Source: Gemmatimonadota bacterium
GTDB taxonomy: Bacteria; Gemmatimonadota; Gemmatimonadetes; Longimicrobiales; Gaopeijiaceae
Direction of reading: 5' to 3'
Length of the DNA: 52,642 nt
Assembly: GCA_028873815.1 (NCBI GenBank)
Contig: JAPPNN010000025.1
Span: 1 to 52,642, forward strand
A program made the translations under genes and the position numbers. Below, piece after piece: positions 11,885 through 27,225 of this stretch (its first letter is position 1; the number at the start of each line of letters is the position of its first letter). Under the pieces are notes generated by a model. That model worked only from the letters and a program-made list of their open reading frames with translations. It was not told the DNA's origin and did not search any database.

Positions 11885-11978
11885 TCCCTTGCCCCGCTGT
11901 CGCCCTTCACCGGGCGGCGGCGGCCTGCCGTCCACGGTGGACGGCCTTCAACGCTCACACGCCACAGGAGGCGATCAC
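11885..11978 (+). promoter_or_regulatory. Array leader 2
   Basis: Stem A CCGCTGTCGCCC/GGGCGGCGGCGG (12 pairs, two G-U) with TTCACC loop; CCTGCC linker; stem B GCCGTCCAC/GTGGACGGC; then TTCAACGCTC and CAGGAGG. 94 nt between stop and start. Confidence 0.85.
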
Positions 11979-12218
11979 ATGAGCACGCAGGAAGAGACGA
12001 CGATCACCCACGACCTGCTAGACCGGTTGGGCGTGGATCACGACAGCACCGCGCGCGGCATGCTCGGCCAGCGTTGCACGGTCGAGACCATGCGCGGCGA
12101 CGACCCGCGCATCCCGCCCGCCGCGCAGCGGTTCACCGTCGCGGGCCGCTTGTACCGCGTGCTGCGCGGTCCCACCGGCGCGGTCCTGCACGGGACACCC
12201 GTAGACGCCGACGAGTAG
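11979..12218 (+). CDS. Array ORF 2, 79 aa
   Basis: Unrecognised. Opens MSTQEETTITHDLLDRLGV, a run shared in style with other array members, followed by a beta-rich half with RFTVAGRLYRVLRG. ATG 8 nt behind CAGGAGG. No catalytic motif or membrane segment. Confidence 0.7.
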   Translation: MSTQEETTITHDLLDRLGVDHDSTARGMLGQRCTVETMRGDDPRIPPAAQRFTVAGRLYRVLRGPTGAVLHGTPVDADE

Positions 12219-12329
12219 GCCCAACACCCCCGCAACCGCCCCCACGGTTCACCCCGTGCGGGCGGCCTGCCGATCCGCCCCGACCACCGGGGCGAACGGC
12301 TTTTCAACGCTCGACAGGAGGACCACACC
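12219..12329 (+). promoter_or_regulatory. Array leader 3
   Basis: Stem A CCGCCCCCACGG/CCGTGCGGGCGG (11 of 12 paired) with TTCACC loop; CCTGCC; long stem B CCGATCCGCCCCG/CGGGGCGAACGG; TTCAACGCTCGACAGGAGG. 111 nt, the longest spacer. Confidence 0.85.
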
Positions 12330-12833
12330 ATGAGCGACGCAGGAAAGGGGTACACGGAACCCGGCCCGATTCTCTGGGAGGCGGATGTCTTCGCCGGACT
12401 CAATCCATTCGTGGCCTTGACCGCCCGAACGCCCGAGCATCCGGCCACCGACCGGCGGTTCATGGTCCGGTATCGTGGCAGCGAGGCGCAGATCACCGAC
12501 CAGACCGACCCCGAGACGCCCGAGACATGGCCGACCTTGGCCCGTGCGATTCTCGAAGCCGAGGACACGATCCGCGCCGCATGGTACGAGGGCGGCGGCG
12601 GTGAGAAGGTCGCCGCACCGCTGACGCTGACCGCCGCCGAGTATCGCGGCATGATCGGGCGCGCCATCGACGAGCACGCGCTAACGGTCGAAGTGGCCGA
12701 CCGCTTGGGCGTAGAGTTGTGCCGCCCGTGCTTGGAAGACAACGGAGAATGCAGACTCCCCGACAGTTGCGGGAGGTACTGCGACGAGGCGGGCAGACAC
12801 GGCCCCGACTGGGGCAGGGAGGCCCCCGAGTAG
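12330..12833 (+). CDS. Array ORF 3, 167 aa, Cys-rich tail
   Basis: Unrecognised. The N-terminal half has a beta-hairpin-like FMVRYRGSEAQITDQTDPETP. The C-terminus carries five Cys in CRPCLEDNGEC and CGRYC, which could bind zinc. Preceded by GACAGGAGG at the usual distance. Confidence 0.75.
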   Translation: MSDAGKGYTEPGPILWEADVFAGLNPFVALTARTPEHPATDRRFMVRYRGSEAQITDQTDPETPETWPTLARAILEAEDTIRAAWYEGGGGEKVAAPLTLTAAEYRGMIGRAIDEHALTVEVADRLGVELCRPCLEDNGECRLPDSCGRYCDEAGRHGPDWGREAPE

Positions 12834-12940
12834 TACCCCCCCACCACACCCCCGCGACGGTTCGCCCCGTCGCGGGCGGCTTGCCGATCCCGCCCCGACC
12901 GGGGGCGGACGGCTTCAACGCTCGACAGGAGGCCATACCC
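12834..12940 (+). promoter_or_regulatory. Array leader 4
   Basis: Stem A CCCGCGACGG/CCGTCGCGGG (10 perfect pairs) with TTCGCC loop; CGGCTTGCC; stem B CCGATCCCGCCCC/GGGGGCGGACGG; TTCAACGCTCGACAGGAGG. Confidence 0.9.
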
Positions 12941-13366
12941 ATGAGCGCGCAGGAGAACGAAGGACGAGGCCGAGCCGCCGCACTGGCGACCGGTGCCGAC
13001 GCACTTACGCCCTTGGTGCTGACGCTGCGCCGGGCGCGGCAACTCGCCGCAGCCGCCGCGACGGAGCACGACGCGCCGAACGCGAACGCGCAGCCCGACC
13101 CGTGGAACCCGTTGGACATTCTGCGGCAGGCGGTGGGCGAGCGGTGGGACGGGCCGCTGACCGTGGGATGGTTCGCGGTGTGCGTGATGCTCGCCGCCGA
13201 TCCCGTGATACCGGACAGCGGAGGCGACCCCGAAACCGACCTGCTGGCCACGGTGCCGCACATGGGGCCGTGGGGCTTCGTGGCGCTGCTTTCCCGTGCC
13301 TACACGGGCGCGAGTGCCGCCCGGTACGTCCTCGACACCTTGGCCACCGAGGCCGAGGACGAGTAA
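12941..13366 (+). CDS. Array ORF 4, 141 aa, helical Ala-rich
   Basis: Unrecognised. Ala-rich helices (RRARQLAAAAATEH) and a hydrophobic segment VGWFAVCVMLAADPV that could be a buried helix rather than a true membrane span. Start follows GACAGGAGG. Confidence 0.75.
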   Translation: MSAQENEGRGRAAALATGADALTPLVLTLRRARQLAAAAATEHDAPNANAQPDPWNPLDILRQAVGERWDGPLTVGWFAVCVMLAADPVIPDSGGDPETDLLATVPHMGPWGFVALLSRAYTGASAARYVLDTLATEAEDE

Positions 13367-13471
13367 CCCCACACAACCCACACACCCCCGCGACGGTTCG
13401 CCCCGTCGCGGGCGGCTTGCCGTCCCCGGTTCGCGGGGGCGGCCGACCAAAGCCAACGCAGGAGGCTACCA
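13367..13471 (+). promoter_or_regulatory. Array leader 5
   Basis: Stem A identical to leader 4 (CCCGCGACGG/CCGTCGCGGG, TTCGCC loop), suggesting recent duplication; CGGCTTGCC; stem B CCGTCCCCGG/CGGGGGCGG; AAAGCCAACGCAGGAGG. Confidence 0.88.
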
Positions 13472-13738
13472 ATGGCACAAACGACCATCACCCCCCGGCC
13501 CGCCGAGGTGGCGGCGGTGGCGGCGCTCACGCCCGAGAGGCGGACCGAGTACCGGACCGCGCTGCTCGCCCCGTGCCCGCTCGACGGCAGGCGCGGCCAC
13601 ATCTGGACCGCCGACCGGGGCGACCCGAGGCGCTGGCGGTGCGCGGGCTGCACCGTGCGCCCGTTCGTGGCCGACGATCCCGCCCGGCGCGTAGCCGAGG
13701 CACTGGCGGCGCTTGAAGCCGTGGAGGCGGTCCAGTGA
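13472..13738 (+). CDS. Array ORF 5, putative zinc-knuckle protein
   Basis: 88 aa, unrecognised. CPLDGRRGHIW and CAGCTVRPF supply three Cys and a His spaced like a small zinc ribbon in the middle; the C-terminus is an Ala/Glu helix. Stop overlaps the next start (GTGA), so it forms a two-gene cassette with ORF 6. Confidence 0.75.
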   Translation: MAQTTITPRPAEVAAVAALTPERRTEYRTALLAPCPLDGRRGHIWTADRGDPRRWRCAGCTVRPFVADDPARRVAEALAALEAVEAVQ

Positions 13739-14121
13739 GCGCCGCAGAAGCCAAAGAGGCCAAGCCCCCGAGGCCGAGGCCGACGCGCAACTACGCGACC
13801 GCCGCGCAGCGGCTCGCCGAGCGCATGGGCTTCGGTCTCGAATCGTCGGGCCGTGCGTGGATACTGACCGCGCCGACCGGCTACTCGTACCCGCCGATGA
13901 ACGCGAAACGGGTACTCGGGCACCTGCTCGACATCGCGACCGCGCAGACTTGGGACACCGAGGCGCAGGAGTCCCGCCCGCCGATGCTCACCTATCGGCA
14001 ATGCGCCGCCGTGTGCCGCCTGTCGGTCCCGCCCCGCCTCATTGAGCCCCGGTATTGGTGGCTGTCGTGCGTCCTTCTCATGCAGAAGGCCGCGCACGCA
14101 CAGGACACCGCCGAACGCTGA
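13735..14121 (+). CDS. Array ORF 6, 128 aa
   Basis: GTG start overlapping the ORF 5 stop by four bases, hence no leader of its own. Pro/Arg-rich N-terminus, then a compact domain with YATAAQRLAERMGFGLESS and NAKRVLGHLLDIATAQ. No known family recognised. Confidence 0.75.
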   Translation: MSAAEAKEAKPPRPRPTRNYATAAQRLAERMGFGLESSGRAWILTAPTGYSYPPMNAKRVLGHLLDIATAQTWDTEAQESRPPMLTYRQCAAVCRLSVPPRLIEPRYWWLSCVLLMQKAAHAQDTAER

Positions 14122-14223
14122 ACCCTCCCCCAACTGCTCGAGCGTCCCTTCACCGGGGCGCTCGGGCCTGCCCGCTGCCCGTTCGGGGCGGCGGGGGACC
14201 GCAGGAAACAGGAGGAAAGACCC
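14122..14223 (+). promoter_or_regulatory. Array leader 6
   Basis: Stem A CTCGAGCGTCCC/GGGGCGCTCGGG (12 pairs) with TTCACC loop; CCTGCC; stem B CGCTGCCC/GGGCGGCG with GTTCG loop; GCAGGAAACAGGAGG. Confidence 0.88.
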
Positions 14224-14616
14224 ATGCCGGGACTTATCACCTATGGCGACGGCTTCAACGTCCTGGACGGCGCGCCGTGCGGCTGTCGGTATCTCCAGAC
14301 CGACGACGGCGAGGCGGAAAGGTGGCTGCACCGCTGCGGCGACCGCCGTCGCTGTGTCTACCGGGGCACCATCGCAAACGCCGACATTGCCATCACGCCG
14401 ACGCACGGCACCACGGGCCAACTCCCCGGCCATCGCACCGTCACGGTACACGGTGAGAACGTCGGGGCGCTCGTGCGCACCGCTGGCCGCTGGCGGGTTG
14501 CGCTGCCCGCTTGGCACGGCACGCGGCACGGCAGTTTCCAGACCGAACGGCAGGCCGCCCGGTACGTCCGCGACCTTCTCACCGAAGAGGGCCCGCGCGT
14601 ACTCGCTCGCGCCTGA
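14224..14616 (+). CDS. Array ORF 7, 130 aa, beta-rich
   Basis: Unrecognised. CGCRYLQTDD and CGDRRRCVYRG give four Cys in the first third; the rest alternates beta strands (RTVTVHGENVGALVRTAGRWRV has that pattern) and ends in a helix. The ATG follows AGGAGGAAAGACCC. Confidence 0.75.
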   Translation: MPGLITYGDGFNVLDGAPCGCRYLQTDDGEAERWLHRCGDRRRCVYRGTIANADIAITPTHGTTGQLPGHRTVTVHGENVGALVRTAGRWRVALPAWHGTRHGSFQTERQAARYVRDLLTEEGPRVLARA

Positions 14617-14713
14617 AACCCCTTCCCGATCCCGTCCGCGACCCTTCACCGGGCGCGGACGCTTGCCCGCTCCAGCCGGGGGCGGGTGTTTTCTCCATCA
14701 CAGGAGGCAGGAA
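14617..14713 (+). promoter_or_regulatory. Array leader 7, SD-pairing subtype
   Basis: Stem A GTCCGCGACCC/GGGCGCGGAC with TTCACC loop and one bulged A; GCTTGCC; stem B CCGCTCC/GGGGCGG with AGCCG loop; CTCC-ATCACA-GGAG can pair and hide the ribosome site CAGGAGGCAGGAAATG. Confidence 0.9.
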
Positions 14714-15433
14714 ATGGGACGCATGACGTACCGCGAGCGCCGAGAGCGCCGGGCGGCCCGCCGCGAGGAATGGGCCGAAGGGCGCGACAAGAAGGCCGAG
14801 GCCAGTTTCGCCGGTGCGGACCGGATCGCCGAGGGTATCCCGCCGGGGCAGCCGATTCTAGTAGGCCACCACAGCGAGAAGCGCCACCGCCGCGACCTGG
14901 ACCGCATCGACCGCGGCATGAGAAACGGTTTCGAGCATCGGAACATGGCGAAGCACCACCGCGAGCGAGCGGCGGGCATCCGTGACCAACTCGACCGGTC
15001 GATCTACCGCGACGACACCGACGAGGCCGAGAAGCTGCGCCAGCGCATCGCCGAGCGCGAAGCCGAGCGCGACCGTATGAAGGCCATCAACCGGACGGCG
15101 GCCAAGATCGCGCGCAAGCACGGTATCAAGCGCCGCACGGGCCATTGGCTGCACGCGCTGACCGACGAACAGGCCGAGACGCTGCAAACGGTCCTCGTCG
15201 AAGTCTGCAAGGCCGTCAAGGCGACCGGGCGCGAAGTCTCGGACATGGCCAGCGCCCTGCAGCACAACGGGACACTCGGCTACCCGGGTTACGCGCTGTC
15301 GAATCTCGGGGCGAACATCCGGCGCGACCGCAACCGGCTACCGGCTGCGGAGCGCCGCGAGGCCGACCGCGCCCGCGTGCGCGAGGCACTGGCCGCAGAG
15401 CGCGCCAAGGAAGCCGCCGAGCCCGCAGGCTGA
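14714..15433 (+). CDS. DUF3560 family protein
   Basis: 239 aa. The N-terminal block MTYRERRERRAARREEW, then IPPGQPILVGHHSEKRHRRD and the following coiled coil match the DUF3560 family, widespread on plasmids and conjugative elements with unknown function. The central 70 residues are a charged coiled coil (EAEKLRQRIAEREAERDRMK); the C-terminal half (KHGIKRRTGHWLHALTDEQ) is a separate helical domain. Its presence ties the array to conjugative or plasmid cargo. Confidence 0.85.
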   Translation: MGRMTYRERRERRAARREEWAEGRDKKAEASFAGADRIAEGIPPGQPILVGHHSEKRHRRDLDRIDRGMRNGFEHRNMAKHHRERAAGIRDQLDRSIYRDDTDEAEKLRQRIAEREAERDRMKAINRTAAKIARKHGIKRRTGHWLHALTDEQAETLQTVLVEVCKAVKATGREVSDMASALQHNGTLGYPGYALSNLGANIRRDRNRLPAAERREADRARVREALAAERAKEAAEPAG

Positions 15434-15533
15434 CCCCATCACCCCCCCAACCGGGCCGGGGCGTGTCACAGCGCCCCCGCCCCCTGTCTCGCCGTTCTGG
15501 CGGGACCGTCACCCTCTTGCAGGAGGTAGCACC
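15434..15533 (+). promoter_or_regulatory. Array leader 8
   Basis: Short stem A GGGGCG/CGCCCC with TGTCACAG loop; CCTGTC; stem B TCTCGCC/GGCGGGA with GTTCT loop; CCTC-TTGCA-GGAGG can pair over the ribosome site. Confidence 0.75.
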
Positions 15534-15695
15534 ATGAAGAAGGTCCAGACCTGCACGGTTGACCGCAACGGGCGCATACGGAAGCCGGACGGGACGTTCG
15601 GCACGCTGGCCGACGTGAAGCGCGTCAACGGTTGCCGGATCCGCCGCCAGTTGGCCCGCTGGCCCGGTGTGCGCGTGATCCCGTCCCGCGCGTGA
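15534..15695 (+). CDS. Array ORF 9, 53-aa basic protein
   Basis: Small basic protein with KKVQTCTVDRNGRIRKPDGT at its N-terminus and an RRQLARWPGVRV tail; possible nucleic-acid binder, function unknown. Start fixed by the leader (AGGAGGTAGCACC-ATG). The 3' end contains a direct repeat, GCGCGTGATCCCGTCCC twice in tandem, spanning the stop codon. Confidence 0.65.
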   Translation: MKKVQTCTVDRNGRIRKPDGTFGTLADVKRVNGCRIRRQLARWPGVRVIPSRA

Positions 15696-15788
15696 TCCCG
15701 TCCCGACCGTTCCGCCCTTTCACCGGGGCGGGACGGCTTGCGCCGCCCGTTCGGGGCGGGGCTTTCACTCCGTTACGGGAGGCAGGAA
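15696..15788 (+). promoter_or_regulatory. Array leader 9, SD-pairing subtype
   Basis: Stem A CGTTCCGCCC/GGGGCGGGACG with TTTCACC loop; GCTTGC; stem B CCGCCC/GGGCGG with GTTCG loop; CTCC-GTTACG-GGAG pairs over GGGAGGCAGGAAATG. Confidence 0.9.
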
Positions 15789-16379
15789 ATGGGCGACACG
15801 ACAACGGACAGGCCGTTCACCCATGCCGACGCGCTGGCCCTCATGCGCGAATGGCTGGCGGACGGGCCGCTTACGCTGGCGCAGATCGACGAGCGGATCA
15901 CCGAGCGGGCGCGAAACGACCACCGCGTGAGTTACCCCGACAAGGCAGAGCGGGCGTTCTCGCGCATCGTCCAGTACGATGGCCCCGAGGCGCAGCAGGA
16001 GGCGTACAGCCTCATGCTCGAATCGGGACCGCCCGAGGATTACCGCGAGTTGTTCCCGGTGCTGTACCATCGGCATATCGAGTGCCTGCTCGTGCAGGCG
16101 CGCGACGAGTGCCGGGACGAGGCCGACGCGCGCGCGGTAGACCGGATTCTCGCGGGCGAACCGCTGGACCCCGTCAAGCTCAAGGAAGAGGTCCGCGGAT
16201 ACGGCCACAGCCTGGAAAGGCTGTTGGAGATCGCCGGACAATGGAAAGAGACCGCCAGCCGGTACGCCGCGACCTACGGGCGCGAACATTTCCACACAAG
16301 GCAGGCCCGCCAGCACGCGGCAGCGTTCCGGCTGGTGGCCGCCGAGATCGACGTCGGGGCCGTGTACGGTCAGAAGTGA
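15789..16379 (+). CDS. Array ORF 10, 196 aa, all-helical
   Basis: Unrecognised, predicted largely helical: HADALALMREWLADG, LTLAQIDERI, AQQEAYSLMLESG, SLERLLEIAGQWKETASRY. No catalytic motif. Start placed by GGAGGCAGGAAATG. Confidence 0.75.
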   Translation: MGDTTTDRPFTHADALALMREWLADGPLTLAQIDERITERARNDHRVSYPDKAERAFSRIVQYDGPEAQQEAYSLMLESGPPEDYRELFPVLYHRHIECLLVQARDECRDEADARAVDRILAGEPLDPVKLKEEVRGYGHSLERLLEIAGQWKETASRYAATYGREHFHTRQARQHAAAFRLVAAEIDVGAVYGQK

Positions 16380-16468
16380 TCCCCCCCTGCTCGTTCCTTC
16401 ACCGGAGCGGGCGGGCTTGCCCCGGCCATTCGGGCCGGGGCTGAACCACCTTGCAGGAGGTACACGGG
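16380..16468 (+). promoter_or_regulatory. Array leader 10
   Basis: Stem A GCTCGTTCC/GGAGCGGGC with TTCACC loop; GGCTTGCC; stem B CCCCGGCC/GGCCGGGG with ATTCG loop; ACCT-TGC-AGGAGGT. Confidence 0.88.
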
Positions 16469-17092
16469 ATGAAATCCGACCATCCGATCTATGAAGCCGC
16501 CCGCGCCGACGCGCGCAGGCGCGCCGACGACCCGCATTTCCGTGCGGTGTCGGTGTCGCTCACGGACACGGCCAAGCTCGTGCGGGCCGCGCTGAAACGG
16601 AAGTTTCCAGACGTGCGGTTCTCGGTCCGGTGCGACCGCTACAGCGGCGGATCGTCCATTGATGTACGATGGACGAACGGCCCCCGCGAGCGTGACGTGG
16701 ACGCCGTGATCGGTGTCTATGCCGGACAGGGTTTCGACGGCATGACGGACAGCCGGTATTATAATGGCGCGTGGCTCCACGAGGACGGTAGCGCCAGCGT
16801 CCGGCGCACCGGGTCCAACGCGACGGCGGACCGGTTGCAGAAGGTCGCGACGCTCGACCGGGACGCCGTGCCGGTCAGTTTCGGGCCGTCCTTCGTCCAG
16901 TCCCACCGGACCGTATCCGCAGAGCGGTGGAGCGCCGCAATCAAGGCATACGGCGAGAAGATGGGCGACGCGCTGGGCGACGCCATCCGAGCGGGCACCG
17001 TGGCCAAGGTCTGCGACGCCTGCCACATCCGTGTCGAACCTGGATGGGGCGACATGGCGCTACGCCGGTTCGAGGCCGAAATGGCCACCTGA
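16469..17092 (+). CDS. LPD29-like domain protein
   Basis: 207 aa. TAKLVRAALKRKFPDVRFSV, YSGGSSIDVRWTNGP and VIGVYAGQGFDGMTDSRYY match the large-polyvalent-protein-associated domain 29 (LPD29), usually a module of giant polyvalent proteins delivered or encoded by phages and conjugative elements; here it is free-standing. Residues 160-207 add a Cys pair in VCDACHIRV. Biochemical role unknown. Confidence 0.8.
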   Translation: MKSDHPIYEAARADARRRADDPHFRAVSVSLTDTAKLVRAALKRKFPDVRFSVRCDRYSGGSSIDVRWTNGPRERDVDAVIGVYAGQGFDGMTDSRYYNGAWLHEDGSASVRRTGSNATADRLQKVATLDRDAVPVSFGPSFVQSHRTVSAERWSAAIKAYGEKMGDALGDAIRAGTVAKVCDACHIRVEPGWGDMALRRFEAEMAT

Positions 17093-17183
17093 TCCCCCCG
17101 CCCGTCATGGGTCACGCCGTGGCGGGCGCTTTGCCGGTCCTCAACCGGAGGACGGGTTATCACCCCACACACAGGGGGCAACC
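17093..17183 (+). promoter_or_regulatory. Array leader 11, variant SD
   Basis: Stem A CGCCCGTCATGG/CCGTGGCGGGCG (12 pairs) with GTCACG loop; CTTTGCC; stem B CCGGTCCTC/GGAGGACGG with AACC loop; the ribosome site is ACAGGGGGC, and a TTGCAGGAAG resembling the usual site falls just inside the reading frame. Confidence 0.85.
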
Positions 17184-17885
17184 ATGTTGCAGGAAGCCAA
17201 GGAAGGCAGCCCGACCAAGGCCGAGCGTGAAACCGCGTGGGATGCGGGCTTCAGCGATGCCACGGACGGCAAGCCAAAGCGCGAGGACTGGCCGGATGAC
17301 GGCACGGCGGGCGACTACGACGCCGGACACCAGGACGGACGGCACGCGGTGGCGCAGAACGTAAGGGCCGAAGAGCACGACGAGGCCGACGAAATGGCGC
17401 ACATTCGCGGGTGTTTCGCGACGCTCGAACGCAAGACGCTCAAGCGTTGCGAGGAGATCGCCGAGCGCGCCCGCACCGACGCCGGAGGGGCGGCGCTCGA
17501 CATCGCCGAGACCGTGGCGGTGCTGTGCCGCGAGTTGGTGGCCGCCATTGATCGCGGGGAGGGCCCCGAGGCCATCGTCGCCGCCCACGACACGCTGCGG
17601 CAGGTGAAGCCGATCGCCGCAGCGGAGACCACGAACCTGATCCCGCCCGGCCGCGACGCGACGCGCCGGGGGCTGGCGCGGCTGATCGGCAAGAAGCGCG
17701 CACAGTTGGCGCGGATGGACAGCAAGATCCCGCAGCGGATTCCGCCCGCATTCCTGGACGCGGACGGCGGGGACTTGTGGGACGCGCACACCAACGCCGA
17801 GACGCTGACCGACCCCAACGCCTACGGACGGCGCAGCGTGCGCCGCCAGCTGGACGCGCTCGTTCACGCTTGGGATGTCGCATAG
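17184..17885 (+). CDS. Array ORF 12, 233 aa, AW-GF-D repeat family
   Basis: Residues 15-55 read ETAWDAGFSDATDGKP...W...DYDAGHQDGRHA, a two-part motif shared with the pseudogene at 18215 and the protein at 19377. It loosely recalls ribosome-modulation-factor-like motifs, but that is a weak resemblance. The remainder is helical and acidic. The last 11 nt overlap the next gene. Confidence 0.75.
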   Translation: MLQEAKEGSPTKAERETAWDAGFSDATDGKPKREDWPDDGTAGDYDAGHQDGRHAVAQNVRAEEHDEADEMAHIRGCFATLERKTLKRCEEIAERARTDAGGAALDIAETVAVLCRELVAAIDRGEGPEAIVAAHDTLRQVKPIAAAETTNLIPPGRDATRRGLARLIGKKRAQLARMDSKIPQRIPPAFLDADGGDLWDAHTNAETLTDPNAYGRRSVRRQLDALVHAWDVA

Positions 17886-18117
17886 TCCGATGGCGACGTA
17901 CTACGAAACCGGCGTCACCGACAACGGCCCGTTGCGGTATCGCGTCCAGTTGCGCCAGCGCGAGCGGTACGTCGTGGACCAGCGCCACATCTGGTATCCG
18001 CCGACGCCGCACGTCTCGAAGCCGACAGCCGAGGACTGGATACCATCGGCGGGCCACCGCATCCCGGAGCACTTCCGGAAGGTCGCCGACCCCGACCGGG
18101 CGCTCGCAGACGCCTGA
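17875..18117 (+). CDS. Array ORF 13, 80 aa
   Basis: Starts inside the end of ORF 12 (ATG 17875, or 17890), so it is translationally coupled and lacks its own leader. Beta-rich: PLRYRVQLRQRERYVVD then IPEHFRKVADPDRAL. Unrecognised. Confidence 0.65.
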   Translation: MSHSPMATYYETGVTDNGPLRYRVQLRQRERYVVDQRHIWYPPTPHVSKPTAEDWIPSAGHRIPEHFRKVADPDRALADA

Positions 18118-18214
18118 ACCCCAACCGCTTCTCGCGCGGATCAAACCGGGCGGGAGGCTTGGCCGTGTTCCAGCCGGGAACACGGCACCCACCCCGAGAC
18201 ACAGGGGGAAAGCC
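18118..18214 (+). promoter_or_regulatory. Array leader 12, variant SD
   Basis: Stem A GCTTCTCGCGCGG/CCGGGCGGGAGGC (12 of 13 paired) with ATCAAA loop; GGCTTGGCC; stem B CCGTGTTCC/GGAACACGG with AGCCG loop; ACAGGGGGAAAGCC-ATG, with CAGGAGGC directly after the ATG, as in leader 11. Confidence 0.85.
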
Positions 18215-20676: not shown

Positions 20677-20876
20677 GCACCGCAGATCGCCCCCCGTCGC
20701 CGATTGCGCGACTACACGAGGCCATCCGGCGCGCCAAGGCCGTCGGGCTTTCGGTGACCCGCTACGGGAACCGCTGGCACATCCACGAAGACGACGGGCG
20801 CATCCGGGCCGAGACCGACGACTACACGCACATTCCCGCCATGCTCGACGAAATGGGAGTGCCGCCAGCGACCTGA
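20673..20876 (+). CDS. Array ORF 18, 67 aa
   Basis: GTG start overlapping the ORF 17 stop. A helix (ARLHEAIRRAKAVGLSVTRY) followed by a small beta segment (NRWHIHEDDGRIRAETDDY). Unrecognised; co-translated with ORF 17. Confidence 0.7.
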   Translation: MSTADRPPSPIARLHEAIRRAKAVGLSVTRYGNRWHIHEDDGRIRAETDDYTHIPAMLDEMGVPPAT

Positions 20877-20959
20877 TTTCCCCTACAGGACCGCCACGGG
20901 TCGAACCGTGGCCGTCCCCTGCTTACGCCGCCGTGGCGGGAGGGTAACCCCCTTGCAGG
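20877..20959 (+). promoter_or_regulatory. Array leader 16, decayed
   Basis: Stem A GGACCGCCACGG/CCGTGGCCGTCC (11 of 12 paired) with GTCGAA loop is intact, but the linker and stem B are disordered and the ribosome site is reduced to TTGCAGGGTGCC. Confidence 0.65.
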
Positions 20960-21252
20960 GTGCCTTCAACGTCGCGGTTACGGGCGGGCGGGCGGTGCCG
21001 TTACATCGAGCTTCCCGACCTGGACGGCCCAAAGCGGCTTGCGCATCGGTGGCGGGCCCCAAGCGCGTTCGCATTGAGCCGCATCGACGCCACCGAGCGC
21101 GACGCGGGACCATCGGCGTCCCTCACCGGCGAGGCCGCGGACAAGGGCCCACGATCCATCGCTTGAGCGGGCGGCGCTGAACTACCGGCAACCAAGGGGC
21201 GGGAAAGGTCCCGGCTCGGGCGGCTCGCCTTGCCCGAAGGAGTAGGCCCCAC
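20960..21252 (+). pseudogene. Decayed array cassette
   Basis: After the damaged leader, a frame from GTG 20960 to TGA 21166 has a coding-like stretch RYIELPDLDGPKRLAHRW but no proper start. It is followed by CCCGAAGGAGTAGGCCC, which matches the end of the pseudogene at 18690-18711 (TGCCGAAGGAGTAGGCCC). So the 3' end of an ORF 14 paralogue and its leader survive here while its body has been deleted. Confidence 0.5.
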
Positions 21253-21343
21253 CGACACCCCCCGCGTTCCTTCACCGGGCGCGGGGGGCTTGCTTCCCGG
21301 CCATTCGGGCCGGGGGATCGACTCCGAACAGGAGGGCGGGAAG
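21253..21343 (+). promoter_or_regulatory. Array leader 17, SD-pairing subtype
   Basis: Stem A CCCCCCGCGTTCC/GGGCGCGGGGGG with TTCACC loop; CTTGCT; stem B TCCCGGCC/GGCCGGGGGA with ATTCG loop; CTCC-GAACA-GGAG over AGGAGGGCGGGAAGATG. Closest to leader 13 but with compensatory stem changes. Confidence 0.92.
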
Positions 21344-21949
21344 ATGGAAGACCGGATCATCCACGACGGGACCGCGACGCTTGCGCCGGTCCCGGCTGGC
21401 CGAACGCTGAAGGTGGCGCGAACCGCCGCCGAGTGTCTGGACATGGCTGCGGCCCAGATCGAGCGGCACGGGCTGGTCTGCCGCGAGTGGGGCGAACGCG
21501 ACGGGCCTTGTTGCACGCTGGCCGCGATCAATGCCGCCGCCGGGCTGCCCGTGAGCAATGACACCACGCCCGCCGTCGTGGGCACGGCGGACGACATGGA
21601 CCGGGCGGGCTTCGCCGTACCGGACGTGGTAGAGGCCGAGCCCGACGGGCTGTACGTCGCCTACGCCTACGGAGCGCGGAAGCATGCGCACTACGCGCCC
21701 GTGTTCGCCGAGTACAAGCGGCGGCAGGCCGTGGCCTTCTCGGCGGTCGGGATGCTTTACGACTCGCTGCTGTGCCGGGGACGGCTGACCGACGACGGCA
21801 CGATCGTAGGCTCCAGCGCCCGTCGCTCCGCGCTGATGGCGTGGAGCGACGTTCACGACGGGAAGCTCGACGGTTGGGGCGCGGCGGACGTGGTGGCGCA
21901 CCTTCGGGCCGCCGCCGCGTTCGCCCGAGGCTGCACCGTCCACGGCTGA
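21344..21949 (+). CDS. DUF6197-like protein
   Basis: 201 aa. AAAQIERHGLVCREW followed by CCTLAAINAAAGLP resembles the DUF6197 pattern (helix, G-W/L, then C-x-L-G/A-A-I-x-x-A), common in actinobacterial and mobile-element proteins of unknown role. The C-terminal 100 residues are helical (YKRRQAVAFSAVGMLYDSLL). Confidence 0.7.
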   Translation: MEDRIIHDGTATLAPVPAGRTLKVARTAAECLDMAAAQIERHGLVCREWGERDGPCCTLAAINAAAGLPVSNDTTPAVVGTADDMDRAGFAVPDVVEAEPDGLYVAYAYGARKHAHYAPVFAEYKRRQAVAFSAVGMLYDSLLCRGRLTDDGTIVGSSARRSALMAWSDVHDGKLDGWGAADVVAHLRAAAAFARGCTVHG

Positions 21950-22148
21950 CCACGAGAACCCGCGCCCAGACGCCGCCGGAGGCCGTAACCGGGGGCACTG
22001 ACCCGCCCAAAGGCCTTCGAGGCCCGCACGGGCCGATTCTGGCCGCTCTCCGGCCATTTCCGCACCGTCCGCGCCTTTCACCGGGCGCGGAGGGCTTGCC
22101 CCGTCCGAATCGCGGACGGGCCGAACCCCATCACGGGAGGCAGGAACC
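21950..22148 (+). promoter_or_regulatory. Array leader 18 with 117-nt insertion
   Basis: 21950-22066 is extra sequence without coding character. The leader proper starts at 22067: stem A TCCGCGCC/GGCGCGGA with TTTCACCG loop; GGCTTGCC; stem B CCGTCCG/CGGACGG with AATCG loop; CCC-ATCAC-GGG over GGGAGGCAGGAACCATG. Confidence 0.85.
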
Positions 22149-22685
22149 ATGCAGAACCCAACCCCGAACGTCGAGGCGTTGCGGATGCTCGCGGACCACA
22201 TGGACGGCTTGCCGAGCCTTGGCGCGGCGGAGTACGAGGACGCCCCGGCGGTCTACATGTGCGCGTGGATCGACAACGACCACATGCGCGACGACTGCGG
22301 GACCGTCGGATGCATCGCCGGTCACGCGGTCGCGCTGGTGGACGGCCACGAGGCGGCGGTGCGGCTCGCCAGGGACGGTGGATGCTCCGACATCCCGACA
22401 AGGGCCAGGGCGATACTCGGACTCGTGGACCCCGAGGCGGAGGCCGGGGGCGACGCGACGCACCGGCTCGCCCGCGTGGCGCACGCGCTGATGTACCCGC
22501 CGGGCCAGCGCAGCGAGGAGCCGCGCATCCGCGAGGTCATCGACGCGATCAACGGAGCCGACTGCGCCCGGCTGCTGCGCCGCGTCGTTGACAACGCGGA
22601 CACCGTGACCGCCGTTGACGTGCGGCTCATGTGGGAGGACGTGAAGGACATCCGGCGCGCCGAGCTGTACGGAGGCGGACGGTGA
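22149..22685 (+). CDS. CGTVGCIAGH-motif protein 1
   Basis: 178 aa. EALRMLADHMDGLP, then CAWIDNDHMRDDCGTVGCIAGHAVAL. The CGTVGCIAGH core recurs at 23220 and 23840 and resembles C-G-T-x-x-C-x-A-G-W/H motifs of phage-encoded proteins of unknown function. C-terminal helical part. Stop overlaps the next gene (GTGA). Confidence 0.75.
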   Translation: MQNPTPNVEALRMLADHMDGLPSLGAAEYEDAPAVYMCAWIDNDHMRDDCGTVGCIAGHAVALVDGHEAAVRLARDGGCSDIPTRARAILGLVDPEAEAGGDATHRLARVAHALMYPPGQRSEEPRIREVIDAINGADCARLLRRVVDNADTVTAVDVRLMWEDVKDIRRAELYGGGR

Positions 22686-22930
22686 GCCCCGCCGCGCCGG
22701 TGGCCGAGACCGCCCGCGCCCCGGACGGCTGTTGGGCCGTGCTCGTCCACGGCGACAGCCGCGCCGACTTCACCGAGACGCCGGAAGGCGGCGAGTTCGA
22801 GGTGAGTTACCACAACGTGGCGACGGGACCGCGCCGCGCCGTCGTGGTGCTCAAGGACGAGCCGCCGTTCAGGTCCCGGATCACCGGTGGCTGGTGCGGT
22901 TGGGCGCGCTTCGTCGCGTGGGCCGAATGA
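22682..22930 (+). CDS. Array ORF 22, 82 aa
   Basis: GTG start inside the preceding stop. Beta-rich (CWAVLVHGDSRADF, GEFEVSYHNVATGP), unrecognised. Co-translated partner of the CGTVGCIAGH protein. Confidence 0.65.
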   Translation: MSPAAPVAETARAPDGCWAVLVHGDSRADFTETPEGGEFEVSYHNVATGPRRAVVVLKDEPPFRSRITGGWCGWARFVAWAE

Positions 22931-23038
22931 TTTCCCCCGCATTCCCCCCGCACGCCGGGGCGCTTTCAACGGCGCTCCGGCGAATGGCTCCCGCCATCCG
23001 GGCGGGCGCGACAACCCCCGATCAACGGGAGGCGGGAA
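22931..23038 (+). promoter_or_regulatory. Array leader 19
   Basis: Stem A CGCCGGGGCGC/GCGCTCCGGCG (11 pairs) with TTTCAACG loop; GGCTCC; stem B CCGCC/GGGCGG with ATCC loop; CCC-GATCAAC-GGG over GGGAGGCGGGAAATG. Confidence 0.88.
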
Positions 23039-23599
23039 ATGACCAAGTACGAAGCCACCTACATCGAGCCGGTCCGGCAGAAACTGCGCGAAGCCGCCGA
23101 GCACATGCGCGAAATGCCCGCGCACCGCGTGGACGGCGGCACGCTCGACGGCCACCGCGTGGACATGCTGACGTGGTTCGACGAGGACCATTGGCTGGAC
23201 AGGCCCGGCGACTGCGGGACCGTCGGATGCATCGCGGGCCATGTCGTGGCCATGCACGACGGCTACGACAAGGCGCGGCGGATGGCGACGGGCGTGCTGG
23301 AGTTCGAGTCCTCGTTCGGCATCCGGGCCGCCGAGTTGCTCGGCCTGAACGGCGGCCATGCCGACGACGCCGGAATCGCGAACGCGCTGTTCCACCCGCT
23401 CAAGGGTTGGGACAAGCCCGTGCAGCGCGAGATCGAGCGCCACATCGACGGCGAGCACTGCGCGCACATGCTGGAGTTCGTCGCCGACAACCTCTATCGC
23501 GAGGACGGCGGCAAGGTCACGCGGCTGACGGCGACCGCCGTGCGCTGTGAATGGCTGAACGTCCAGCACCGCATCGCCATCGCCGAAGAACTTGAGTAA
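23039..23599 (+). CDS. CGTVGCIAGH-motif protein 2
   Basis: 186 aa. KLREAAEHMREMPAHRVDGG, WFDEDHW and DCGTVGCIAGHVVAM align with the protein at 22149; the C-terminus (CAHMLEFVADNLYREDGG) matches its LLRRVVDNADTV segment. Paralogue by tandem duplication; function unknown. Confidence 0.75.
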   Translation: MTKYEATYIEPVRQKLREAAEHMREMPAHRVDGGTLDGHRVDMLTWFDEDHWLDRPGDCGTVGCIAGHVVAMHDGYDKARRMATGVLEFESSFGIRAAELLGLNGGHADDAGIANALFHPLKGWDKPVQREIERHIDGEHCAHMLEFVADNLYREDGGKVTRLTATAVRCEWLNVQHRIAIAEELE

Positions 23600-23693
23600 C
23601 CCCGATCCCGCCGGGGCGCTTCACCGCGTCCCGGCGGCCTGGCCGGACTCCAACCCGTGGAGACGGCATCACTCCCTCACAGGAGGCAGGAAC
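23600..23693 (+). promoter_or_regulatory. Array leader 20, SD-pairing subtype
   Basis: Stem A CCGCCGGGGCGC/GCGTCCCGGCGG (12 pairs, one G-U) with TTCACC loop; CCTGGCC; stem B CCGGACTCCA/GTGGAGACGG with ACCC loop; CTCC-CTCACA-GGAG over AGGAGGCAGGAACATG. Confidence 0.92.
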
Positions 23694-24173
23694 ATGCAGG
23701 ACACGACGCGACTTCTCGACATGGCGGACTTCCTCGACGGGCTGCCGAACGGCAGGAACGTCCACGCTGGCGACGACGCGGTCGACATGAGCGTCTGGCG
23801 GTGCTCGGTTCGCAGCAAGAGGCCCGGATGCGGGACCGTGGGCTGCATAGCGGGCCACACGGTGCTTCGCTACGACGGTACGGCCAAGATGCCCCGCATG
23901 GGGTGGGGCGCGCGGGCCGCGTTCCTTCTCGGGTTCTGCACCGAACAGGAGTACGGCAGGGCGCTGTTTGCGCGCAAGCCCACGAAGGACGCCGACGTTG
24001 AGCGGCGTGTCGGCGTGGTCGCCGAACTTTTCCATCCGGTGCAGCGGCCCAGCGATGCAATCGAGATCGACGGCAGCCAGTGCGCGACCGTGATGCGGGC
24101 CGTCGCCGAGCACGCCGACGCCATCACCGCCGCCGACGTGGCCGGGTTGTGGCGGCGGGCTATCGCCGGGTAG
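23694..24173 (+). CDS. CGTVGCIAGH-motif protein 3
   Basis: 159 aa. RLLDMADFLDGLPNGRNVH and GCGTVGCIAGHTVLRY repeat the family pattern; C-terminus CATVMRAVAEHADAITAADV parallels the two previous members. Third tandem paralogue. Confidence 0.75.
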   Translation: MQDTTRLLDMADFLDGLPNGRNVHAGDDAVDMSVWRCSVRSKRPGCGTVGCIAGHTVLRYDGTAKMPRMGWGARAAFLLGFCTEQEYGRALFARKPTKDADVERRVGVVAELFHPVQRPSDAIEIDGSQCATVMRAVAEHADAITAADVAGLWRRAIAG

Positions 24174-24266
24174 CACCCCACGGGGCCGGGGCGGATCGAA
24201 CCGCTTCGGCTCCCTGCGCCGTCCGTTCGGGACGGCGCGCAACTCCCCAACAGGAGGCAGGAATCT
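24174..24266 (+). promoter_or_regulatory. Array leader 21, SD-pairing subtype
   Basis: Stem A GCCGGGGCGG/CCGCTTCGGC with ATCGAA loop; CCTGC; stem B GCGCCGTCC/GGACGGCGC with GTTCG loop; CTCC-CCAACA-GGAG over AGGAGGCAGGAATCTATG. Confidence 0.9.
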
Positions 24267-24701
24267 ATGAGCGTACAGAGAGAGCGGGCCGACCTGGCCA
24301 AGGGCTACCGCCTGCTCAAGCGCAAGGGCCACGCCGTCGGCAACTACATTGCCGAACCGGACAGCGAAATGTGCATCCTTGGCGCGCTGGCCGTCGCGAT
24401 CGGCGGGTGTATCGTCTACATCGACGGGGAGATCCCGGTGATGAACGACACCGTGCCCAAGCGGTTCGTCGATGCGGCCAGGCGGTTCTGGTGCTTCATG
24501 CCGACCAAGTGGCACGACACGGGCCGGTCCATGCTCGAAGACATTCTCGAGTTCAGCGACGCCGACGAGTCCGCCGTGCGGGACCGGGTGTTCCGGCTCG
24601 CCATGAGCGACGCCGAACCGCCCGAGCATGAACACGACTGGCGCGACCTGGAGCTTGTGGGCGACACGCTGGCGGTCAAGACGCCCGAGGCGACCGCATG
24701 A
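24267..24701 (+). CDS. DUF6197-like protein, CILGAL motif
   Basis: 144 aa. YRLLKRKGHAVGNYIAEPD then MCILGALAVAIGG matches the C-x-L-G-A-L core of DUF6197 better than the protein at 21344. Helical remainder. The stop overlaps a 32-codon gene (ATGA). Confidence 0.72.
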   Translation: MSVQRERADLAKGYRLLKRKGHAVGNYIAEPDSEMCILGALAVAIGGCIVYIDGEIPVMNDTVPKRFVDAARRFWCFMPTKWHDTGRSMLEDILEFSDADESAVRDRVFRLAMSDAEPPEHEHDWRDLELVGDTLAVKTPEATA

Positions 24702-24796
24702 GCTTCCGGCGCTGGCTCGTCACGGTGAAGGGCTGGACCGCCGAGGCCGCAGCGTTGGAAGTGGCTCGCATCCGCGCAAAGATCGCGGCGATGTGA
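24698..24796 (+). CDS. Tiny coupled ORF, 32 aa
   Basis: ATGA overlap with the preceding stop. MSFRRWLVTVKGWTAEAAAL followed by a basic helix; possibly an amphipathic micropeptide. It ends where leader 22 begins, which supports it being a real coding unit rather than chance. Confidence 0.55.
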   Translation: MSFRRWLVTVKGWTAEAAALEVARIRAKIAAM

Positions 24797-24890
24797 CTCC
24801 CCCCGATCCCGCCGGAACGCTTCACCGCGTCCCGGCGGCTTGCTTCCGCCGTTCGGGCGGGGGCTTCACTCCGATCAAAGGAGGCAGGAA
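24797..24890 (+). promoter_or_regulatory. Array leader 22, SD-pairing subtype
   Basis: Stem A CCGCCGGAACGC/GCGTCCCGGCGG (11 of 12 paired) with TTCACC loop; CTTGCTT; stem B CCGCC/GGCGG with GTTCG loop; CTCC-GATCAAA-GGAG over AGGAGGCAGGAAATG. Near copy of leader 20 in stem A. Confidence 0.92.
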
Positions 24891-25295
24891 ATGAGTACAT
24901 CCCGAGTCCCCATCAGCGGCGACGCCCTGAAGCGCGTGAAGTGGCTCCGCAGCTACTACGATTCGCCGATGGGCAACGAGGACGGGCCGACCATGACCGA
25001 GGACGCCCGGGCGCTTCTGTGCAGCCAGCTCGACGACCTGGCCGCCATCGGGCGGGCGGACCACGGCAACGGCAGAATCATCATCACGGTTCGCCACGGC
25101 CCCGACATGCACGACGACGACATCGACATGGAGCAAGCCCGGCAGTGGGCCGCGTACCGGCTCGCCGAGTCCGGCGAGATCGAACTGCCCGACGACGACA
25201 GCGACCCCGACCCGTCCGGCATCGACGACGCGACCGTCGTACAGATGATCGCCGACGACATCGGCGCGAATCTCGACTACGAGAAACTGCGCTGA
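24891..25295 (+). CDS. Array ORF 27, 134 aa, acidic
   Basis: Unrecognised, strongly acidic: MHDDDIDMEQARQWAAYRL and LPDDDSDPDPSGIDD. The N-terminal half (GDALKRVKWLRSYYDSP) is basic. Acidity of this kind is common in DNA-mimic inhibitors, but nothing specific supports that here. Confidence 0.72.
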   Translation: MSTSRVPISGDALKRVKWLRSYYDSPMGNEDGPTMTEDARALLCSQLDDLAAIGRADHGNGRIIITVRHGPDMHDDDIDMEQARQWAAYRLAESGEIELPDDDSDPDPSGIDDATVVQMIADDIGANLDYEKLR

Positions 25296-25388
25296 CCCCC
25301 CTTCTCCCCGGCATGGGCACCGTCACGGGTGCCCATGCCCCTTGCTCCGCCGTTCGGGCGGCGCACTCACTCCGTAACAGGAGACAGC
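25296..25388 (+). promoter_or_regulatory. Array leader 23, intact hairpins, lost start
   Basis: Perfect 12-bp stem A GGCATGGGCACC/GGTGCCCATGCC with GTCACG loop (25310-25339); CCTTGCT; stem B CCGCC/GGCGG with GTTCG loop; CTCC-GTAACA-GGAG; but the ribosome site reads AGGAGACAGCAACG with no ATG. Confidence 0.88.
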
Positions 25389-25511
25389 AACGACCAGACG
25401 CCAAAGCGCCCGAGTGCGTGCGCGCGCGAAATCAGGCGGGACCGGCACCGGATCGAAATGCTGATCGCCCATGTGCAGCGCGAGGCCCGAGAGGCCGAAA
25501 AAGACGACTGA
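25389..25511 (+). pseudogene. Array cassette lacking a start codon
   Basis: The frame NDQTPKRPSACAREIRRDRH...EAREAEKDD ends at TGA 25509-25511 just before leader 24, as a cassette gene should, but no ATG, GTG or TTG is available at the leader end. A 39-codon basic/acidic helix remains. Likely a gene truncated at its 5' end, or an ACG-initiated micropeptide. Confidence 0.5.
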
Positions 25512-25598
25512 CCCCCTTCCGGCCGGGAGGTTTCACCGCCCCCCGGTCGCATGTTCCGTCACGAGGACGGGACTTCACTCCACACAAGGAGGCAGGAA
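25512..25598 (+). promoter_or_regulatory. Array leader 24, SD-pairing subtype
   Basis: Stem A GGCCGGGAGG/CCCCCCGGTC (9 of 10 paired) with TTTCACCG loop; stem B TTCCGTC/GGACGGGA with ACGA loop; CTCC-ACACAA-GGAG over AGGAGGCAGGAAATG. Shortest spacer (87 nt). Confidence 0.85.
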
Positions 25599-25904
25599 AT
25601 GGCGAACACCAATGTGCTCGCGGGCTGGGCGTGCCCGAAGTGCGGCCAGACCGAAGGGTTCCGCATCGCGGGAACCATCTGGCTCGACGTGACCGACGAC
25701 GGCACCGTGCCGTCCGACGAACCGGGCCGCACCGATCACGAGTGGGACGGCGACTCGACCACCGAGTGCCCTGGATGCGGCTACGTGGGGCGGCAGGCCG
25801 AGTTCCATGAAGACCTTGAGCTTGAACAGACGATCGCCGCGCTCAAAGAGGCCCCCCGGAACGTCAACAGCGAAACAGGCCGGAGAGTGAGGGGCTACCT
25901 ATGA
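25599..25904 (+). CDS. Zinc-ribbon protein, 101 aa
   Basis: CPKCGQTEGF and CPGCGYVGRQ, about 40 residues apart, form a standard two-knuckle zinc ribbon; an acidic loop lies between them. Possible nucleic-acid or protein adaptor. Stop overlaps the next ATG. Confidence 0.78.
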   Translation: MANTNVLAGWACPKCGQTEGFRIAGTIWLDVTDDGTVPSDEPGRTDHEWDGDSTTECPGCGYVGRQAEFHEDLELEQTIAALKEAPRNVNSETGRRVRGYL

Positions 25905-26458
25905 GCGAGCGACAGCCCCCCGACGACCTGTGGCATCCCATCGACATTGAGCCGCCCGAGAACTTCGAGCTTGAGATCGCGGTGCGCCAAGCGGCACGCG
26001 ACGACGAGCGGCACAACGCGCTCCGGCGCATCGTGAGCGTGCCGACGGAGGCGTACCTGTGGGTGCCCGAGGACGCGATCACGTTCACGCCGCCGCTTTC
26101 GGACGTCATCTACGGCGACGGTCGCGCCCTGTTGAGTTTGACGACCACCTTCGACCGGCCCGCGTTCTGGCTGATTCGGATCGACAGCCGGTGGGATGTC
26201 GGCCAGCCGTCGTACCCGAGCGAGGACGCGCCCGACATCAGGGAATACACCGACTACATGATGTCGAACCTGGTAGCGGAGTTCGGCGAGGGTGAGCCGG
26301 GATGGTACGACCACCAAGAGGAAGGCGAGCGCGAACCCTACCCGGCAATCTGGTCGGGTGACGGCTATTCATGGCGGTGGCACGGTTGGCCCGCCGAGGC
26401 GGGGCCGGTCGAGCCTCACCCGTACTGGCGGCACACCACCATCGCGGCAGCGCAGTAA
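25901..26458 (+). CDS. Array ORF 30, 185 aa
   Basis: ATGA overlap with the zinc-ribbon gene. Acidic, Trp/Tyr-rich (PAFWLIRIDSRWDVGQP, DGYSWRWHGWPAEAGP). No family recognised. Co-translated partner of the zinc ribbon. Confidence 0.75.
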   Translation: MSERQPPDDLWHPIDIEPPENFELEIAVRQAARDDERHNALRRIVSVPTEAYLWVPEDAITFTPPLSDVIYGDGRALLSLTTTFDRPAFWLIRIDSRWDVGQPSYPSEDAPDIREYTDYMMSNLVAEFGEGEPGWYDHQEEGEREPYPAIWSGDGYSWRWHGWPAEAGPVEPHPYWRHTTIAAAQ

Positions 26459-26549
26459 CCCCCTTTCCCCGTCCGTCACGGTTCAACCCGTGGCGGGCGC
26501 TTGCCCGGTCCATTCGGGACCGGGTTCACTCCGCAACAGGAGGCAGGAA
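26459..26549 (+). promoter_or_regulatory. Array leader 25, SD-pairing subtype
   Basis: Stem A CGTCCGTCACGG/CCGTGGCGGGCG (12 pairs) with TTCAAC loop; CTTGCC; stem B CGGTCC/GGACCG with ATTCG loop; CTCC-GCAACA-GGAG over AGGAGGCAGGAAATG. Confidence 0.92.
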
Positions 26550-27008
26550 ATGAGTGACACCAAGAAGAAGACGCCGGGCAAGTACGTCTGCCAAAGCTGC
26601 GGGGGCGATAATCTGTCGTTCTCCTTCAGCGGAACATGGGACGTCGAAAAGCAGGAATGGGACTACGATGACGACGGCGAGAAAGCCTTTTGCCAAGACT
26701 GCGAGTGCCGTGGCTGGTCGACGTTCGTCTCGCTCGGCGACACTCGGACCGAGCCGCAGTTGGGCCGCGACTTCTACGACGATCTGTTCGTCGTGGTGGA
26801 CGACGGCGGCGAACCGGTGGGACCGTATCACCTCTCACTCAAGCGGGCGCGAGAGTACCGCGAGGATCACGGCGACGGGGCCGAGCACTACCGCATCGCC
26901 AAACTCATGTACCGGGCGCTGCCCAACGAGGACGAGCCGGACGAGATCGTGGACGACCCGAGGCCGCAGCAGGAACCCAAGGAGCTTCCCGTGGAGATGT
27001 GGCCGTGA
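26550..27008 (+). CDS. Zinc-ribbon protein, 152 aa
   Basis: YVCQSCGGDNLSFSFSGTW and FCQDCECRGWSTF give a four-Cys ribbon in the first 60 residues; the C-terminal half is acidic with YREDHGDGAEHYRIAKLMYR. Overlaps the next gene (GTGA). Confidence 0.75.
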   Translation: MSDTKKKTPGKYVCQSCGGDNLSFSFSGTWDVEKQEWDYDDDGEKAFCQDCECRGWSTFVSLGDTRTEPQLGRDFYDDLFVVVDDGGEPVGPYHLSLKRAREYREDHGDGAEHYRIAKLMYRALPNEDEPDEIVDDPRPQQEPKELPVEMWP

Positions 27009-27184
27009 GCACCACCGACGAGAAGGAAGCGCCGAAGTTCGACTGTCCGCTGTGCCAGTTCGCCTACGAATGCGGGTCACGCGCATGGGAGTGCGGCTGC
27101 GGCCGCCGGGTTGATCTGCGCGAGGATTCGCAACTCGCGCTGATCCGCGACGACGGCGACGTGAACCGGCTCGCCAGCCAGTAG
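27005..27184 (+). CDS. Cys-rich 59-aa protein
   Basis: GTG start in the preceding stop. FDCPLCQFAYECGSRAWECG has five Cys and could fold around one zinc. Last gene of the array. Confidence 0.7.
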   Translation: MSTTDEKEAPKFDCPLCQFAYECGSRAWECGCGRRVDLREDSQLALIRDDGDVNRLASQ

Positions 27185-27225
27185 TTGCCGAACACCGGAA
27201 TGCCGGGGGTCGCACCCCGGCGTTC
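27185..27225 (+). repeat. Terminal lone stem A
   Basis: GGAATGCCGGGG/CCCCGGCGTTCC (12 pairs, one G-U) with GTCGCA loop follows the last array gene, but no stem B or ribosome site follows. So stem A belongs to the 3' end of each cassette and stem B plus the ribosome site to the next gene. Confidence 0.85.

Follow-up and report, generated by a model that had tools for sequence, protein, structure and literature searches.

A covarying double-hairpin element between the small genes of a Gemmatimonadota array, and its possible role as a tRNA-like processing signal

What keeps two hairpins in place between one gene and the next, copy after copy, when their letters differ almost completely? The question is raised by a stretch of 52,642 nucleotides (nt) from a Gemmatimonadota bacterium (contig JAPPNN010000025.1 of assembly GCA_028873815.1, a genome of 4.29 Mb in 87 contigs), hereafter the window, which carries a long row of small genes on its plus strand. 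A first-pass annotation had placed an array at 11885..27225, had described about 24 gaps of 87-111 nt, each with a stem A followed by a stem B, and had proposed selection on RNA or on folded DNA. Here we analyze this element in the window and in related genomes. The explanation that we tentatively favor, although we give it slightly less than an even chance, is that stem A is a processing signal resembling the t-elements of plant mitochondria, at which RNase Z and/or RNase P probably cut to yield single-gene messages. The analysis also brought out tRNA-like features, an adjacent recombinase, exchange of genes between arrays and a hairpin at the Shine-Dalgarno (SD) sequence, all of them additions to the first description.

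Anatomy, covariation and distribution of the element

The array and its elements are given below. Elements 1 to 24 comprise stems A and B and were found, unless stated otherwise, both by folding the gaps and with R1, a covariance model built from seven copies.

11284..11426, plus strand: array leader, with a tRNA-like 3' part GGTGCG ... GGCGG-TTCGATT-CCGTC-CGCACC, then TTG and stem B; precedes the first array gene (start 11453)
11453..27184, plus: array genes, a row of small genes mostly of unknown function (Pfam finds DUF3560, DUF6197 twice and LPD29)
11894..11945, plus: element 1, also found by a scan for 12-bp hairpins with 6-nt loops
12236..12300, plus: element 2
12849..12913, plus: element 3
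13385..13443, plus: element 4
14137..14195, plus: element 5
14632..14688, plus: element 6, stem A bulged, also read individually
15453..15506, plus: element 7
15707..15762, plus: element 8
16386..16441, plus: element 9
17099..17157, plus: element 10
18128..18186, plus: element 11
18717..18774, plus: element 12
19295..19348, plus: element 13
19980..20035, plus: element 14, fold z -5.36
20888..20943, plus: element 15, stem A intact, stem B decayed, start codon unclear
21257..21317, plus: element 16, 7-nt loop, found with the covariance model and read individually
22065..22121, plus: element 17, inside the 199-nt gap
22953..23009, plus: element 18
23608..23668, plus: element 19
24183..24238, plus: element 20
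24809..24864, plus: element 21
25310..25365, plus: element 22, ATG not at the usual place downstream, fold z -5.50
25520..25573, plus: element 23
26470..26525, plus: element 24
27197..27226, plus: terminal copy at the array end, stem A only, found by gap folding and by the hairpin scan; terminator-like by its tail

The two-stem copies share one layout. Stem A, of 12 bp, carries a 6-nt loop N-U-C-R-N-N and is followed by a CNUG linker and by stem B, of about 9 bp with a 5-nt loop, behind which, as a rule, stand an SD sequence and the start codon. Gap folding returned this order in all 24 two-stem copies, as first described, save that stem B is decayed at 20888; the 25th copy closes the array, and stem-A-only copies likewise close the arrays of two other genomes (G014 and G022). 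The dimensions given for stem A also held, with 11 or all 12 pairs formed and a loop of 6 nt in 23 of the 25 copies, the exceptions being 14632 (bulge) and 21257 (7-nt loop). The gaps, however, are less uniform than described: a recount from stop to start put 21 of them at 87-111 nt and the one before 22149 at 199 nt; downstream of the copies at 20888 and 25310, no start codon is clearly recognizable. The region assigned to the array was confirmed, but its left end lies further out, with the gene at 11453 and the tRNA-like leader. Around element 15, the whole stretch 20877-21245 looks decayed, and the next clear gene comes only past the element at 21257. Behind element 11, a stop codon at 18263 is in frame with the expected ATG, so that gene 18215-18706 looks broken or starts elsewhere.

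The hairpins are far more numerous than expected. Between 11885 and 27260 there are 27 hairpins of 12 bp with a 6-nt loop, and 23 of these coincide with gap copies; 30 Markov sequences averaged 2.4, with at most 4. In a gapless alignment of stem A that leaves out the two irregular copies and so covers 23 of 25 in the window (22 distinct rows), 97.0% of cells are paired versus 54.4% in shuffles, and the covariation score is 1.034 versus 0.252, a value reached by none of 500 shuffles; all 12 pairs covary, each varying on both sides. Another set comprised 46 distinct rows, one from the window and 45 chosen as the 6-nt-loop copies among 81 elements of four other genomes, and gave 98.2% versus 53.7%. 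When the partner strand is slid, pairing drops to 44-53% in both sets. Thus, the Markov, shuffle and slide controls rule out chance or GC richness as the source of the hairpins, and the initial observation that stem letters vary while pairing is kept is well founded.

The annotation had suggested searching related genomes with a covariance model and checking Rfam. R1 recovers 24 of the 25 window copies at E < 0.005 (its seven training copies included), all on the plus strand, and it detected the element in eight genomes of the genus besides this one. Among 121 genomes of the family, 10 had matches: nine of one genus, this one included, and G083, of a different genus, whose weak single match is the sole one outside the array genus in that scan. 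Samples of the class and the phylum (394 and 395 genomes, overlapping) gave nine genomes with matches, all of the same genus. In these scans the RNA model scores 14 to 150 of thousands of candidates per genome, and single copies can be missed. The nine genomes hold 155 listed elements, of which 117 pass 11 of 13 points (111 distinct); the other 38 were judged individually, and many of these have an identical 12-bp stem but a 7-nt loop. At least 11 of 12 pairs together with NUCR occur in 97 of the 155 with a 6-nt loop and in 20 more with a 7-nt loop. Between G021 and G022, the orthologous elements differ by one loop base in the two cases read. A search of the whole window against Rfam 15 gave no match at the gathering threshold; sub-threshold matches fall in 11150-12400 and in loci L035, L041 and L061. 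Searches of the open-licence literature turned up no title or abstract start describing the element. Whatever its function, this is a strongly covarying structured element without an Rfam match at threshold, whose arrays occur, in these searches, in one genus only.

Outside the main arrays, isolated elements lie near contig ends (G030:C29:1547-2213 and G014:C214:1265-1320). In the window, a hairpin of 12 bp (42069-42098), whose loop reads TTCGCC and which runs into a T-rich tail, follows a 1612-aa protein (37172-42010) that has SdrD_B and carboxypeptidase-regulatory repeats.

A phage precedent offered by the annotation, the start-associated repeats (SAS) of cluster K mycobacteriophages, did not hold up. 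SAS is a conserved 13 bp repeat, GGGATAGGAGCCC, next to starts; about half of the copies have 17 bp inverted repeats (ESAS), whose changes, in general, do not preserve pairing (PMC3203893). What is alike is a repeated element that precedes numerous starts and, in about half of the SAS copies, inverted repeats. SAS sequence is conserved and ESAS pairing is not generally kept, whereas here the sequence varies and the pairing is kept. A search by blastn against phages found no relative of the array; the protein at 23039-23599 has no homologue except itself and no viral relative, none was found for one further array protein, and another matches three distant viral loci.

The folding molecule and its possible reading by tRNA enzymes

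RNA or DNA, and which strand? For the strand test, copies were selected automatically on Watson-Crick pairs only, which gives G.T and A.C equal chances. Stem A of 91 distinct copies contains 120 G.T versus 18 A.C cells, and stem B in the same test 39 versus 8. Single changes between orthologous stems run between Watson-Crick and G.T in 30 cases, with 7 for A.C and 33 for other mismatches, part of which may stem from shifts between 6- and 7-nt loops. Mutational bias as the source of this asymmetry is excluded, since C/T and A/G differences number 149 and 190 in the neighboring genes (39 orthologous pairs) but 32 and 9 in the stems. The excess of G.T therefore points to the coding (plus) strand, as a single strand, as the fold that is selected. 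Judged by this test, selection acts on the mRNA or, less likely, on top-strand single-stranded DNA. The asymmetry and its gene control rule out a double-stranded palindrome for a dimeric protein. Template-switch copying as the sole keeper of perfect hairpins is not favored either, because such copying would be expected to restore Watson-Crick pairs and not G.U. Covariation and asymmetry together bear out the claim of selection on structure. Given a plus strand that folds single-stranded, a post-transcriptional role, itself partly supported, is the better-supported half of the alternative that the annotation had left between RNA and DNA.

Across the 111 distinct copies, the loop keeps U in 106 and C in 109, and the linker keeps C31 in 100, T33 in 109 and G34 in 88; loop positions 1 and 6 read U.C in 48, G.A in 22, A.A in 20 and G.G in 9. 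Stem B has at least six of seven Watson-Crick pairs around a 5-nt loop in 70 of the 111, versus a shuffled mean of 5.3, the same hairpins also scoring with 3- and 7-nt loops. A stop triplet (any frame) lies 4-29 nt upstream of stem A in 109 of the 111, and the distance from the end of stem A to the start codon has a median of 53 (interquartile 52-56, 104 copies).

A stem held at 12 bp despite varied letters and loop size suggests a reader that measures from the loop to the foot. In tRNA, the acceptor and T stems comprise 7 + 5 bp, and U-C-R occupies T-loop positions 55-57. By its shape, stem A may stand for this acceptor and T-arm minihelix. One long array transcript would be split by the host RNase Z, alone or together with RNase P. 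The cut by RNase Z would fall in the linker that follows stem A, and RNase P could also cut before stem A. Each message would carry hairpin B at its start and hairpin A at its end, and such B-SD-gene-A modules could do without promoters of their own and would withstand being exchanged, in agreement with the traffic of genes between arrays. The differing stem letters would keep each hairpin folding on itself and hinder recombination between copies. If this is true, a bacterial mobile element uses the tRNA-maturation enzymes of its host as a general message cutter, in a bacterial counterpart of mitochondrial tRNA punctuation, and any gene between a B and an A hairpin becomes an independent message without its own promoter. 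With over 100 natural copies of kept geometry and varied sequence, the family is a test set for minihelix reading by RNase Z and RNase P.

Some copies resemble tRNA more closely. A scan for GTTCRANYC plus stem in ten stretches found seven places, all of them stem-A sites or array-end counterparts. In one gap of G012, the unforced best fold is a mini-tRNA (z -3.79) whose acceptor measures 7 bp and in which a single extra arm accompanies a T-like one; the best fold of the window leader retains its outer stem and T arm. At the first sites of the window and G030 and at the last site of G012, the structure can be drawn with the T arm separated from the acceptor on the 5' strand, as it is in tRNA. 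A gene for RNase Z is present in the genome.

Several results speak against a processing signal of this kind. The loop in the G012 gap reads UGCGACU, at odds with a strict T loop; the strict 7-nt form TTCRANY closed by G-C does not describe the family, most copies having 6-nt loops, and loop positions 1 and 6 rule out a strict T-loop mimic for most copies. Forcing the tRNA-like form costs 1.8 (window), 3.1 (G030) and 4.7 kcal/mol (last site of G012) over the best fold, and the first sites of the window and G030 are no more stable than shuffled sequences (z 0.41 and -0.01). The opened form at the last G012 site had been drawn by eye, and the best fold differs from it; rejecting it took our confidence from just under even to a shade lower. 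Cutting at stem A is something that we infer from sequence. ARAGORN called no tRNA in the window, and one in 21 loci, outside the array. Because the loops are not strict, the forced folds are costly and tRNA calls are missing, the likeness is best described as one of size, of the conserved U-C-R and, in a few copies, of topology; it is not a sequence family. Avoidance of a 13th pair, an RNase signature that was looked for in stem A, was not seen.

Known systems match the proposed signal in part. Plant mitochondrial t-elements and mitochondrial tRNA punctuation place tRNA-like structures at the ends of coding units, as the minihelices here may do; here, in contrast, the setting is a bacterial gene array, the structure is mostly a 12-bp minihelix with a 6-nt loop plus hairpin B, and tRNA searches do not call the copies. 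RNase P substrates in polycistronic bacterial mRNA and acceptor/T-arm model hairpins are alike in intergenic position and in minihelix shape (PMC11143913, PMC2777011), whereas here a repeated covarying family separates a whole array and no RCCA follows the stem. In both comparisons, cutting of the present element is a prediction. Compared with the top half of a tRNA, the element shares the 12 bp, the loop U-C-R and, in some copies, TTCRANY, but its loop is usually 6 nt, G53-C61 is not kept, and there is no CCA and usually no D or anticodon part. As for true tRNA genes, those found in the genome of the window (L076-L093) have trailers beginning with T or CT in 18 of 18 cases, and a tRNA-SeC is predicted at L048:10013-10094 (minus strand), about 12 kb behind the array and recombinase of G022.

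The near-constant geometry of A, linker and B and the nearly constant spacing to the start codon would also suit an element that acts without any tRNA enzyme, either as the site of a dedicated RNA-binding protein or in the control of ribosomes; A and B would be read by geometry and loop, and a third, weak hairpin (C) would mask the SD until opened. Indeed, C can pair four SD bases in 50 of 104 copies, versus a mean of 8.1 and a maximum of 17 in 200 sets of shuffled leaders. Support for the SD hairpin is nevertheless modest, because re-dealing the SDs among copies gives a mean of 39 and a maximum of 49 in 500. The SD hairpin is absent from about half of the copies, the terminal stem-A-only copy and the T-loop copies are left unaccounted for, and no conserved RNA-binding protein was identified beside the arrays, where only the recombinase was examined closely. 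We consider this explanation rather unlikely.

The hairpins could also be plain mRNA hairpins, A guarding the 3' end or stopping reinitiation and B guarding the 5' end, with a general RNase such as RNase E or J cutting the linker, or with only the last copy acting as a terminator. This would have the same module anatomy, with a stop triplet before stem A and B before the SD, and the terminal copy at 27197 has a T-rich tail and scores terminator-like. However, for general stabilization, more than 100 copies would not have to keep 12 bp, a UCR loop and a CNUG linker, and intrinsic termination within the array is unsupported: stem A is followed by at least four T in the next 8 nt in only 9 of the 111 copies, and a terminator scan gave nine finds, the terminal copy among them, versus 8.8 expected. 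We hold plain hairpins to be distinctly unlikely.

The adjacent recombinase and gene exchange between arrays

Directly after the array lies one further gene:

27474..28478, plus: Cre-like tyrosine recombinase gene (Pfam PF00589, 6.9e-13; nearest solved relative Cre)

Its best homologue stands behind an array in all nine array genomes, in G019 on a second contig. Genes common to the arrays have 65-97% nucleotide identity and are mostly collinear, with single genes missing or moved: a homologue of window gene 24891-25295 sits elsewhere in G014, and 26550-27008, the last cassette in the window, is mid-array in four genomes. These comparisons indicate that array genes are exchanged like cassettes. 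Such variation in position and presence, the constant recombinase, and four G014/G030 junctions at which stems A and B remain with the upstream gene, as attC would, are what one would expect of a separately arisen integron-like system, in which the plus strand folds as single-stranded DNA and the recombinase acts at the hairpins to move cassettes. The arm-spacer-arm size of lox and dif sites can also be likened to 12-6-12, which we count in favor of such a system.

Other observations argue against it. Seven chosen junctions, read per base, fall into three kinds: four lie in the SD block and represent at least three events, two lie in the A/B linker, and one lies before A. Such variety is easier to reconcile with exchange through short stretches of similarity than with a single fixed crossing point; an earlier idea that crossing over always occurs in the A/B linker was dropped, as these junctions lie more often in the SD block. 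In the pair table for exchange, many cases keep neither A nor B and are uninformative. None of the 111 copies has the motif GTTRRRY in the 3' part, and a single one has RYYYAAC upstream; neither count exceeds that in shuffles. attC recombines through the bottom strand (PMC2727003), whereas in these elements the top strand is the one under selection. Twelve lower-scoring recombinase loci that were examined (48-58% identity, eight of them holding at least 3 kb upstream) have no such array, with one stray hairpin in L115, and R1 found no element in L075, the one viral relative of the recombinase. Sequence comparison found no integron integrase at E 0.001 as a relative of the recombinase, the match in the Protein Data Bank being Cre. 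Furthermore, the recombinase-proximal end is conserved among the window, G030 and G014, unlike the variable end of an integron, while in G016 and G017 it is the less similar part. Integron cassette arrays do share one-orientation small genes, a structured variable site after each, a nearby tyrosine recombinase and gene exchange (PMC2727003, PMC9892861); the present arrays differ in having two hairpins, no R boxes, a selected top strand, a Cre-like recombinase at the 3' end and several junction types. Because of the varied junctions, the array-less recombinase relatives, the lack of R boxes and the bottom strand of integrons, we treat an integron-like system as a rival and not as the answer; it is unlikely.

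We also considered that the same hairpins serve twice, as tRNA-like cut signals in the array message and as coding-strand single-stranded DNA sites for a Cre-like recombinase that shuffles cassettes. This very unlikely combination would amount to an independently evolved counterpart of integrons, with sites built from a tRNA minihelix.

Elsewhere in the genome, two more Cre-like paralogues (G000:C44:103810-104736 and G000:C13:41849-42772) have no hairpin arrays within 10 kb upstream. The arrays of G016:C102 and G017:C210 are 96% identical over 13 kb and their recombinase ends 82%, which suggests block exchange of the array.

The remaining genes of interest in the window are the following:

49912-51117, minus: integrase, which we take to be of P4 type (Phage_int_M and Arm-DNA-bind_3 matches)
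43480-46290, 46355-47626, 6797-9534 and 1116-2579, minus: two primase-like genes, a Prim-Pol/D5-like pair, and an N6_N4 methyltransferase with an Mrr-like end

With this integrase, the primase genes and the methyltransferase on the same contig, the array most likely sits within an integrative mobile element. The integrase region of the window is common to G030 and G021. Within the array itself, three adjacent proteins (22149-22685, 23039-23599 and 23694-24173), a tandem family without a Pfam match, look alike by eye and have the motif CGTVGC-IAGH.

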